DNA of 44,254 nt from a virus. The DNA is taken from IMG/VR virus record IMGVR_UViG_3300009502_000089, positions 1 through 44,254 of that record, one strand, 5' to 3'. Below, in pieces: positions 40,628 through 43,421 of the stretch. Every line of letters starts with the position of its first letter. The first letter of the stretch is position 1. The translations under genes and the position numbers were made by a program. Under the pieces are notes generated by a model that was not told the DNA's origin, made no database searches, and worked only from the letters and a program-made list of their open reading frames with translations.

Positions 40628-40867
40628 TTAATCCACCGAAAATACGTCTTGTTCCTCTAAAAGAGGAGTTGTTTTAGTTTCTGGAGGCTTAACTACTTTA
40701 TGTGCTTCCATTTGTGTGTATTCAACATAGTTCTTTGACATAAGTCTATTTAAAAGATCGTTTTGTTGACATTGTAGACGTTTTTTATCAAAAAACAAGC
40801 TAATTATTAATATTCCTAAAATTACATAAGAAAACAACACTAAAATTACTGTAAAATTACCATCCAT
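40628..40867 (-). CDS. Small membrane protein, 79 aa
   Basis: An N-terminal membrane helix (about 6-26, TVILVLFSYVILGILIISLFF) is followed by a basic Gln/Lys-rich segment and an acidic end (EEQDVFSVD). It overlaps the terminase end by 11 bases, and its stop touches the portal start. A membrane-linked packaging or host-membrane role is possible; nothing proves it. Confidence 0.65.
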   Translation of the reverse strand: MDGNFTVILVLFSYVILGILIISLFFDKKRLQCQQNDLLNRLMSKNYVEYTQMEAHKVVKPPETKTTPLLEEQDVFSVD

Positions 40868-43421
40868 AATAAGACTCCTTGTCTTGATTTTCGTAAAATT
40901 CTTCTAATTCCATATGAGCTATCCCAGATATGTCTATTGGTTTTTTAGATTCCTTTTCTGGAAGTGACTTGCTCCATGACTTCATTTGCATTGGTCTTGC
41001 CATACATAATAGGGCAAAAGAATCCGCACAATTATGAACAAGGATTCCCCCTTCGATATAAAAGGAATGTGAAGAATCCTCAACATCTAAACAATAAACA
41101 TCTTGTTTGCCAAATGATTGTATATTAATAGCCTTTACGAGTTTTCCATGTAAGCAAACTTCTACAATGTGGAGAGCAAGTTTTTTGATTTTGATAACCG
41201 TTTGTAAAAAATGGTTTTGAACATATTTCACAAAGTTGTTCTTTTCTTCTACTTTTAATGAGTGTTCCTTTCTGTTGACATTCCCTTGAGCAGTATAAGG
41301 ATAAATGAGTCCCGTTAAATTCTTTTCCACATTGTTCACATATTTTTTTTGTTCTCTTAATAATTGCTTCCCGACAATCATTGTCATAATGTTCTTTATG
41401 CCATTTTCTTCCCGCATCACTTCCATGCCAGATAGATGCAAATTTTCTGGCGTTAAGTAAATTTTGTTTTGCATTTGATAATTTATGTAATATACAATGT
41501 AATTGCATATGTTCTTTAACTGGTTTAATTGTAATGTTATCTGGTTGGTTATTCTCTTTATTTTTATCTTTATGATGGGAATGAAATCCATTAGGAATTT
41601 TCCCATTATGAAATTCATATACTGCTCGATGCAACCTTTTGCCATTGTGTTGGAAGTATTGTCCACATCTATAATATTTTTCTCCATTAAATTCTTGAAT
41701 AGTATCTGAGATAATATTGACTTGCATAATTGCCTCCTAGTATTATTTATACTAATATAGCAATACTTATCAGACAAGTCAAGTGCTTTTATCCATTTTT
41801 TGTTTAATAACATGAATTTATGGTCAGGAGTACAAATAACTGATCTTCCGTTTGAAAAATCTATTTTTATAACATCTGTGTTTTTTTGTGTTTTTCTACA
41901 ATTATAATATTTAGTCCATTTATCATTAATAGTTTTAACAAATCCCTCTGTCCCTACTAAATCAGATATTTTTATTTCACCATTATTTGTTATAACCAAT
42001 GTGTCGCCACTTAAACAGTGATCTTCACCACTTGAATCAATATCTTCAGGATTATTAGGGTTGACTACCAGAGTTGATAAAGTCCTGATAAAATGAATGC
42101 AGTTGTCGTAAATCTGCATCATAGGTACACCAACTACTTTACCATCTTCTATAGGTACATGAAGTCTCTGATGCACTTGTCGCCATTTTAATACACGTGC
42201 AGGATCACCGGGTCTTAAAACAATACCTTTCATTCTAAATTCATCTGCTGTGGAAGCGCCTTGTCCACCACCTCTATAGTCAGGTTTCTTGTTAAAACAC
42301 GTAGGATCGCAAAATCTAGTAATTTGAGGATTAAATACTATTCCGTTATTTGTTTTGTCTGTCGTGTTAAATCCCATAGATTCTTCACGTACTTTAATTC
42401 CTTCTGCTATTTCGCTGTCAGAAAGTCTTAATCCTTGATTTGGGGTTCCATTCCATCCGTACCATTCTGCAAACATATAAAATCTACCGTCTGAATCAAT
42501 CCAGTACCAATTTGCACTAAAAGGCGCTCCAAAGCCCCAGTCAAACGTCATAAACAAGGGCGCATCTTTAGGCACGGGAATTGACTTAATTACATGATGG
42601 TGTCTGTTCCACTCCTGAAAAGCCTGTCCAATGAATGTATCCCATGAACCATCCCTAAAAGCAGCTCTCAAGTGAAGTGGGAGCGTATTGAGCATATTCC
42701 AGTAAGTAGCATCCAGATAGGGGTTGTCTTCTGCTTTGGATTGAATAAATTTGAATTTCTTGGTGTAGTCTGTTGGTTCTTTATATTCAGGAGGGAAGAT
42801 ACCGTCAATCCAAAATGCCTTACAAAAAGCGTGTCCTATCCCACCGGGATTCGTTCCTCCAAAGAAAAGCGTCTCATTATCGTTTAAACCAGACCATCTT
42901 AACCGCATTCTAAGGTCATTAAACGTGTCAAACGGGTTCTTTGTCAGTTCATCTATCCCTATAGCAGCGAATTCGGCAGACTGATACTTACTTGAATCAT
43001 CCAAATTCCTAAAGCAAATAACTCCATTTCCGTACTCGGGAGCAAGTATAAAACACCTGCCATAGTCCTTGTGATCAGAATATCCCTTTCCCAGCCATGC
43101 GGGGAATTCACGGGCAATCTTTGTCAACTGACGATCCTTTAAAGAAGGATAATCTTCACAAGCAAGCATCACCTGCACCCATGTCAATCCCTTTTCAAAG
43201 TACCACGCCATCAACAATCTGACAAGAATCCACCTTAAAAGATACGATTTCCCTCCCCCCAGGCACCCACCATAAAGAAGATATTTATACATACCGCTGT
43301 CTACAGCAGCGCAGACTTCCATCTGCCGTTCAGTAAATTTCGCAATGTCCTTGTCAAAATCTACTTCCTTACGCTTATTGTTTAACTGCTTTTCAAGACG
43401 AGCATCTGACTTCTTACTCAT
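40857..43421 (-). CDS. terL: Large terminase (packaging ATPase/nuclease) containing an intein
   Basis: The 854-codon frame encodes a 525-residue terminase once the 329-residue intein is removed. ATPase motifs are Walker A GGCLGGGKSY (51-60), Walker B IGIDELT (154-160) and GGTNPGG (188-194). The RNase H-like nuclease has FDWG with D294. The last acidic motif EDH...CADSF (residues 465-468 before the intein, 798-802 after it) is split by the intein. Splicing would restore EDHCADS. So packaging depends on protein splicing. GGAAGG lies eight bases before the ATG. The overlap with the small membrane gene at the 3' end suggests translational coupling. Confidence 0.92.
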   Translation of the reverse strand: MSKKSDARLEKQLNNKRKEVDFDKDIAKFTERQMEVCAAVDSGMYKYLLYGGCLGGGKSYLLRWILVRLLMAWYFEKGLTWVQVMLACEDYPSLKDRQLTKIAREFPAWLGKGYSDHKDYGRCFILAPEYGNGVICFRNLDDSSKYQSAEFAAIGIDELTKNPFDTFNDLRMRLRWSGLNDNETLFFGGTNPGGIGHAFCKAFWIDGIFPPEYKEPTDYTKKFKFIQSKAEDNPYLDATYWNMLNTLPLHLRAAFRDGSWDTFIGQAFQEWNRHHHVIKSIPVPKDAPLFMTFDWGFGAPFSANWYWIDSDGRFYMFAEWYGWNGTPNQGLRLSDSEIAEGIKVREESMGFNTTDKTNNGIVFNPQITRFCDPTCFNKKPDYRGGGQGASTADEFRMKGIVLRPGDPARVLKWRQVHQRLHVPIEDGKVVGVPMMQIYDNCIHFIRTLSTLVVNPNNPEDIDSSGEDHCLSGDTLVITNNGEIKISDLVGTEGFVKTINDKWTKYYNCRKTQKNTDVIKIDFSNGRSVICTPDHKFMLLNKKWIKALDLSDKYCYISINNTRRQLCKSILSQILFKNLMEKNIIDVDNTSNTMAKGCIEQYMNFIMGKFLMDFIPIIKIKIKRITNQITLQLNQLKNICNYIVYYINYQMQNKIYLTPENLHLSGMEVMREENGIKNIMTMIVGKQLLREQKKYVNNVEKNLTGLIYPYTAQGNVNRKEHSLKVEEKNNFVKYVQNHFLQTVIKIKKLALHIVEVCLHGKLVKAINIQSFGKQDVYCLDVEDSSHSFYIEGGILVHNCADSFALLCMARPMQMKSWSKSLPEKESKKPIDISGIAHMELEEFYENQDKESYYGW
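41125..41727 (-). CDS. HNH endonuclease nested out of frame in the terminase intein
   Basis: The 200-codon frame differs from the terminase frame. It has an HNH core near its N-terminus (LHRAVYEFHNGKIPNGFHSHHKD with HSHH at about 47-50, then NQPDNITI) and two zinc knuckles: CEQCGKEFNGTHLSLYCSREC and CEICSKPFF...TCSPHC. AGGAGG (41733-41738) lies five bases before the ATG, and a promoter is 27 bases further up. It fills exactly the gap between the N- and C-terminal intein halves. Expression can be independent of the terminase frame. It probably cleaves terminase genes that lack the intein. Whether the protein is made is untested. Confidence 0.88.
   Translation of the reverse strand: MQVNIISDTIQEFNGEKYYRCGQYFQHNGKRLHRAVYEFHNGKIPNGFHSHHKDKNKENNQPDNITIKPVKEHMQLHCILHKLSNAKQNLLNARKFASIWHGSDAGRKWHKEHYDNDCREAIIKRTKKICEQCGKEFNGTHLSLYCSRECQQKGTLIKSRRKEQLCEICSKPFFTNGYQNQKTCSPHCRSLLTWKTRKGY
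41754..41782 (-). promoter_or_regulatory. Promoter inside the intein for the nested HNH gene
   Basis: On the minus strand TTGACT (41777-41782) and TATATT (41754-41759) are 17 bases apart. They are encoded within the intein codons for ALDLSDKYCYI. The predicted start near 41747 gives a leader of about 20 bases to the AGGAGG-ATG of the HNH gene. Confidence 0.75.

Follow-up and report, generated by a model that had tools for sequence, protein, structure and literature searches.

We found that the gene for the large terminase subunit (terL) in the window, the whole stretch of viral DNA that was analyzed (44,254 nucleotides), most likely contains a mobile intein whose homing endonuclease is encoded by an overlapping gene, and that the overlap is probably kept in a dual-coding state by selection. 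We put the probability of this reading at roughly 88%, with splicing, internal initiation, cleavage and homing being what we infer from the sequence. In the mechanism that we propose, the DNA between the splicing parts has two readings. In the terL frame, it would encode a long and probably unstructured linker that lets the N- and C-terminal splicing parts form one Hint domain, and this domain should excise itself and restore the DHxxD nuclease motif of TerL. In the +2 frame, starting at an internal ATG, the same DNA would encode a free HNH-zinc-finger endonuclease. The most likely target of the endonuclease is the DHxxD motif, or a site close to it, in terL genes that lack the intein, and repair would copy the intein in. 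The overprinted-HNH TerL intein is apparently a widespread, selected architecture.

terL, its parts and everything nested in them are given here in coordinates of the window and lie on the minus strand. The gene (40857-43421) is open throughout its 854 codons. Its product matches the terminase large subunit family PHROG 979 (1.6e-13), gives a weak match to Pfam Terminase_3 and is 26-30% identical to annotated TerL of Arthrobacter phages. The N-extein (42018-43421), the ATPase part ending in ...SGEDH, aligns with intein-less TerL, and the C-extein (40857-41030) starts with Cys+1 (CADSF...). Between them is an intein of 329 amino acids (41031-42017; TerL residues 469-797) that runs from Cys1 to His-Asn. 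In the joined exteins (SGEDH/CADSF, where the slash marks the junction), EDH/CADS aligns with EDHAPDALRY of Arthrobacter phage Vibaki and EDHIYDECRY of a second intein-less TerL (L109). That is, by alignment with intein-less TerL, the insertion is precise and the joined exteins restore a conserved motif. Vibaki and another Arthrobacter phage, Jinkies, were considered as intein carriers and rejected: neither has an intein, and the extension of the TerL match into the intein was spurious. Their terL genes are usable as empty alleles. An ORF of 79 amino acids (40628-40867) with a hydrophobic N-terminus and no confident family lies between terL and the portal gene.

The intein is of class-1 type by sequence and fold, and it is predicted to splice. 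It matches the profiles Pfam Intein_splicing PF14890 (2.8e-12), TIGR01445 (9.3e-12) and TIGR01443 (1.5e-4). The N-terminal splicing part (intein residues 1-90; 41748-42017) matches the profile of gp41-1 (7.3e-21), which was the nearest solved intein by sequence profile and which we take to be a natural split intein. The C-terminal splicing part (residues 290-329; 41031-41150) gives the TIGR01443 match and ends in ILVHN. All of the class-1 residues are present: Cys1, the block B TxxH (TPDH, residues 63-66) and HN/C. AlphaFold predicted the two splicing parts with high confidence (pLDDT 86-98 and 87-98, respectively) and in a Hint fold, which had 36 matches in the PDB at E<=0.001, to inteins, with probability 1.00. 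There was no Rfam match to an RNA intron in the window, and the host frame is open, so a group I intron does not account for the insertion.

The original prediction placed a 200-codon HNH ORF between the intein halves in a different reading frame. This is what we found. The halves are recognized by the Pfam and TIGR intein profiles, and the ORF (41125-41727, 200 amino acids), which constitutes the dual-coded stretch, is in the +2 frame relative to terL and matches Pfam HNH_3 (8.7e-12) and phrog_15471 (3.7e-36). Pfam and PHROG searches with the TerL-frame translation gave no HNH match. The ORF ends, as predicted, where the C-terminal splicing block begins, 32 residues ahead of the end of the intein, and the terminase/intein frame runs across it without a stop. 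Invariant columns of the HNH family include the HNH histidines and asparagine (HH...N...H) and the first Cys4 zinc ribbon. The window ORF thus combines an HNH motif with DNA-binding modules (the Cys4 ribbons), as expected of an HNH homing endonuclease. Its predicted structure is a confident fold (mean pLDDT 93), and the nearest solved structure, by a weak match, is I-HmuI (1u3e). In contrast, the overlap as read in the intein frame is predicted to be disordered (pLDDT about 40-61). The best reading of these models, together with the codon and composition data given below, is that the overlap serves as a linker free of stops in the intein frame and encodes a protein in the HNH frame. Compared to the nearest record, IMGVR_UViG_3300025162_000371, the window is identical over 7349 aligned nucleotides except for 11 differences, all within 376 nucleotides (41371-41746) of the HNH/intein core. 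We take this confinement as a probable sign of local exchange or of fast change of the HNH.

We looked for related loci by tblastn of the HNH against named phages, by scans of IMG/VR with HNH alignments, by a scan of genome contigs and by a search of plasmids. Homologues of the HNH, whose existence the original prediction had left to be checked, were abundant. By tblastn, an out-of-frame HNH was present inside the TerL of Acinetobacter phage Highwayman, Tetrasphaera phage TJE1 and one Rhodobacteraceae phage, in each case with the same frame offset as in the window and with an intact intein. In other phages the relatives were free-standing, and in Vibrio phages the terminase intein was split with the HNH between the halves. 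Altogether there were 107 nested loci, representing 105 clusters at 90% nucleotide identity, one of them haloarchaeal; the genome-contig scan contributed 8 loci, one of which was nested (L100). In the 105 clusters, the N- and C-terminal splicing parts are in one open frame, the HNH is in the +2 frame, and the intein is at or adjoining the DHxxDALRY motif of TerL. The residues at the splice junction were HN/C in 66 of 103 scored loci, the window among them, and SN/C in 21. This recurrence in unrelated contigs excludes a sequencing frameshift as the source of the arrangement. Three further loci had an HNH nested in the other (+1) frame of a TerL intein (L144 3001-3429; L145 3001-3429; L178 3001-3405), and these HNHs resemble that of the window. 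Split TerL inteins with the same HNH family were found in L008, L013, L025, L029, L030, L047 and others. We saw no in-frame version of the window-type HNH in TerL. An intein of DNA polymerase A (L003, 2411-5323) has an in-frame HNH that is 26% identical to that of the window.

Overprinted nucleases tend to escape annotation because the TerL frame is called instead. The Halobacterium sp. GSL-19 plasmid pGSL19_54.9 (L187, 1460-3772) has a TerL-like gene upstream of a portal gene with a nested HNH, and it is annotated merely as 'Hint domain-containing protein'. Two PHROG families, phrog_35162 and phrog_30251, apparently contain translations of the overlap in the intein frame, and the nuclease would thereby be hidden from annotation. 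A separate HNH relative (L084, 2740-3390) has an open +2 frame and no detectable intein blocks.

For eight free-standing relatives of the HNH, a TerL-sized ORF without interruption has its DHxxDALRY-like motif intact, and the relative lies 86-235 nucleotides downstream of that motif. Their position next to the intact motif fits a nuclease that would target that motif. A free-standing HNH beside the TerL motif resembles collaborative homing, which has been described for introns (PMC10448857). It is also conceivable that the HNH is a packaging helper of the terminase, like the HNH proteins that act at cos sites (e.g., in HK97), and that nesting serves co-regulation and not homing. The HNH family is found in or beside terL, and an HNH of the HK97 type does cooperate with terminase (PMC10448857). 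However, a packaging role does not account for the location of the HNH inside inteins at the active-site motif, for the occurrence of split, free and nested forms in one family, for the I-HmuI-like architecture with C-terminal zinc ribbons, or for the related in-frame HNH in the DNA polymerase intein. We consider a packaging function unlikely.

The nested HNH probably has its own translation start. The window has AGGAGG (41733-41738) 5 nucleotides ahead of the HNH ATG, as originally noted. Among 97 nested HNHs with an in-range ATG, 35 had a Shine-Dalgarno match of at least 4 nucleotides ahead of it, compared to 24 of 262 control ATGs in the same frame within the exteins (p=8e-9), a comparison with a mild bias, since the nested set could pick among several ATGs. 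For matches of at least 5 nucleotides, the counts were 19 of 97 and 5 of 262. The original prediction had also given the HNH its own promoter, TTGACT-17-TATATT. These hexamers exist (41754-41782) and are not above chance; the region has 6 promoter-like sites versus 11.8 in shuffled sequences, and we have dropped the promoter. Thus, of the proposal that the HNH is expressed on its own, the translation start is supported by the enrichment of Shine-Dalgarno sequences and the promoter is not.

Instead of internal initiation, ribosomes might shift from the TerL/intein frame into the HNH frame and produce a fused TerL-intein-HNH protein. A programmed frameshift would be consistent with the single +2 offset in 105 clusters and with the 62 of 97 HNHs that have an ATG and no recognizable Shine-Dalgarno sequence within reach, although some hosts may not use one. 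But in 63 of the 105 loci the HNH frame has a stop no more than 45 nucleotides upstream of the matched start (9 nucleotides in the window), which leaves almost no room for a shift site. In addition, there is a 4-fold enrichment of Shine-Dalgarno sequences, three loci have the HNH in the other frame, and the split and free-standing relatives start on their own. We think that there is little chance of a programmed frameshift here, slightly less even than of a packaging role. At its other end, the HNH frame closes mostly on a conserved strand of the C-intein, where codons for Tyr-Asp or Tyr-Asn (TAT GAT, TAT AAT) provide TGA or TAA.

The terL frame is open across the HNH. This could be accidental if the +2 frame of this HNH family is poor in stops, with no selection for splicing. 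A stop in the intein frame requires T at position 2 of an HNH codon followed by A or G, and stops therefore come from Leu, Ile, Val and Met codons. In most members stops are much rarer in the +2 frame than in the +1 frame, and some GC-rich loci have only 0.2-2 expected stops. That the +2 frame is naturally permissive explains the near-constant offset. The original prediction had put the chance of the open frame at about 7 in 100,000, a figure that ignores this permissiveness (the remaining alternative frame of the window HNH holds 26 stops) and does not stand. The conclusion that the frame is open beyond chance does. When the window HNH was recoded with its protein fixed and with host codon usage, 5.3 intein-frame stops were expected, and none of 2000 recodings was stop-free.

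Comparisons across loci also argue against accident. With the HNHs recoded in the same way, about 386 intein-frame stops were expected over the 105 nested clusters (188 in the first 54 loci alone) and none was observed, a count that is partly circular because the nested class was defined partly by the lack of stops. In that frame each of the split and free-standing relatives has stops, from 1 to 14, and in the first set of loci their numbers are as expected. Intein-bearing loci were bimodal: in one group there were no stops and the two splicing blocks shared a frame, and in the other there were several stops and the blocks were often in different frames. Furthermore, a Met codon directly ahead of one for Lys, Asn, Thr, Ile or Met forces a stop in the intein frame. 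The count of such dipeptides was 0/167 in nested clusters and 29/95 in split and free relatives, indicating that the HNH protein has been shaped by the need for an open intein frame. In the three loci that use the other, stop-rich frame, 7-12 stops were expected and none is present. The argument for dual coding rests on the bimodality, the two blocks in one frame, the dipeptides and the second-frame cases, and we regard an accidentally open frame as extremely improbable.

Both frames were examined for selection, as had been proposed. Between related nested pairs, position 3 of the HNH codons changes fastest, as it does in the free-standing relatives. HNH position 3 coincides with the second codon position of the intein frame, so it is in the HNH frame that the sequence is read as protein. 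Positions 1 and 2 of the HNH are under purifying selection. The amino acid composition of the linker in the stop-free intein frame differs only minutely from that of synonymous shuffles; we have dropped amino acid selection on it and treat it as a spacer. The best reading is that selection would preserve the HNH protein sequence and a stop-free TerL frame. Although a related nuclease does occur in frame within an intein (L003), a decayed element, in which a once in-frame HNH domain was shifted by an indel in a dying intein, is hardly credible given this purifying selection, the HNH's own start and stop, its conserved catalytic and zinc residues, the intact splicing residues and the recurrence in 105 clusters.

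In the usual view, an intein either includes its homing endonuclease as an in-frame domain or is divided in two by a separate gene. The overlapping-gene endonuclease, in more than 100 loci, would be a third way of joining splicing and mobility, one in which production of the endonuclease does not depend on the terminase. Dual-coding selection would be measurable by the strong mark that it leaves, namely the missing stops and the dipeptides that the nuclease must avoid. Like canonical mobile inteins with an in-frame HNH or LAGLIDADG endonuclease, the window has an intein and a homing endonuclease at a conserved active-site motif. Unlike them, its HNH is outside the intein polypeptide, in the +2 frame. 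I-HmuI shares the combination of HNH and DNA-binding modules and is intron-encoded. Dassa et al. 2009 reportedly described fractured genes, in which split inteins have a free-standing homing endonuclease between their halves. There, an endonuclease gene has an intein half on either side, as it does in the TerL inteins that are split around a member of this HNH family, but the host ORF is broken (as it is in L008 and L013), whereas in the window the extein/intein frame is unbroken and the endonuclease is overprinted. The suggestion that the window has an unsplit, dual-coding relative of that design is supported by the 105 stop-free nested loci, the expected numbers of stops in split and free relatives and the three loci in the other frame.

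Out-of-frame HNHs have also been found in phage DNA methylases, as the ShiLan domain and the insertion in Pacc40 gp60 (Arsenault, Gosselin, Gogarten 2025, PMC11855218). The ShiLan type is a zinc-finger HNH of 195 amino acids, encoded in an alternate ('third') frame of a host gene whose own frame is open, with homing-like spread; its authors infer that the insertion stays in the methylase, and they find no ribosome binding site (PMC11855218). In both systems the host gene is uninterrupted and the HNH is read from another of its frames. The ShiLan type lacks splicing domains, whereas the window HNH is surrounded by a complete intein; the host here is a terminase and not a methylase, the window has a Shine-Dalgarno sequence, and the class is far larger. 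In the literature that we consulted, we found no description of an intein with an overprinted endonuclease. A 2025 preprint by Gosselin et al., on non-canonical actinophage inteins, is cited in PMC11855218 for overlapping reading frames and may be prior art.

Natural split inteins are widely used tools in protein engineering, and the nested loci are intermediates, open to experiment, that would link them to mobile inteins and to free-standing nucleases. On a tree of the HNHs, 11 changes were needed to account for the nested state, of which well-supported branches force at least two; resolution around the window HNH was poor. It is possible, though we hold this only tentatively and think it somewhat less than even odds, that overprinted endonucleases define a general and large class of inteins, one that forms a bridge in evolution. 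An HNH that stands free and cuts terL would invade an intein already present at its cut site, where it would survive only in a frame compatible with that of the host; once this constraint was lost, natural split phage inteins of the gp41-1 kind would arise.

The site of the intein varies within the one TerL motif. It follows DH, DHx or DA (for example, in L046, L052 and L082 compared to the window), and this variation suggests that insertions may have been repeated or may have slid. Two TerL ORFs (L075, 673-4323, and L089, 721-4302) seem to contain two inteins each, of which the first has a LAGLIDADG domain in frame and the second, farther downstream, an out-of-frame HNH.
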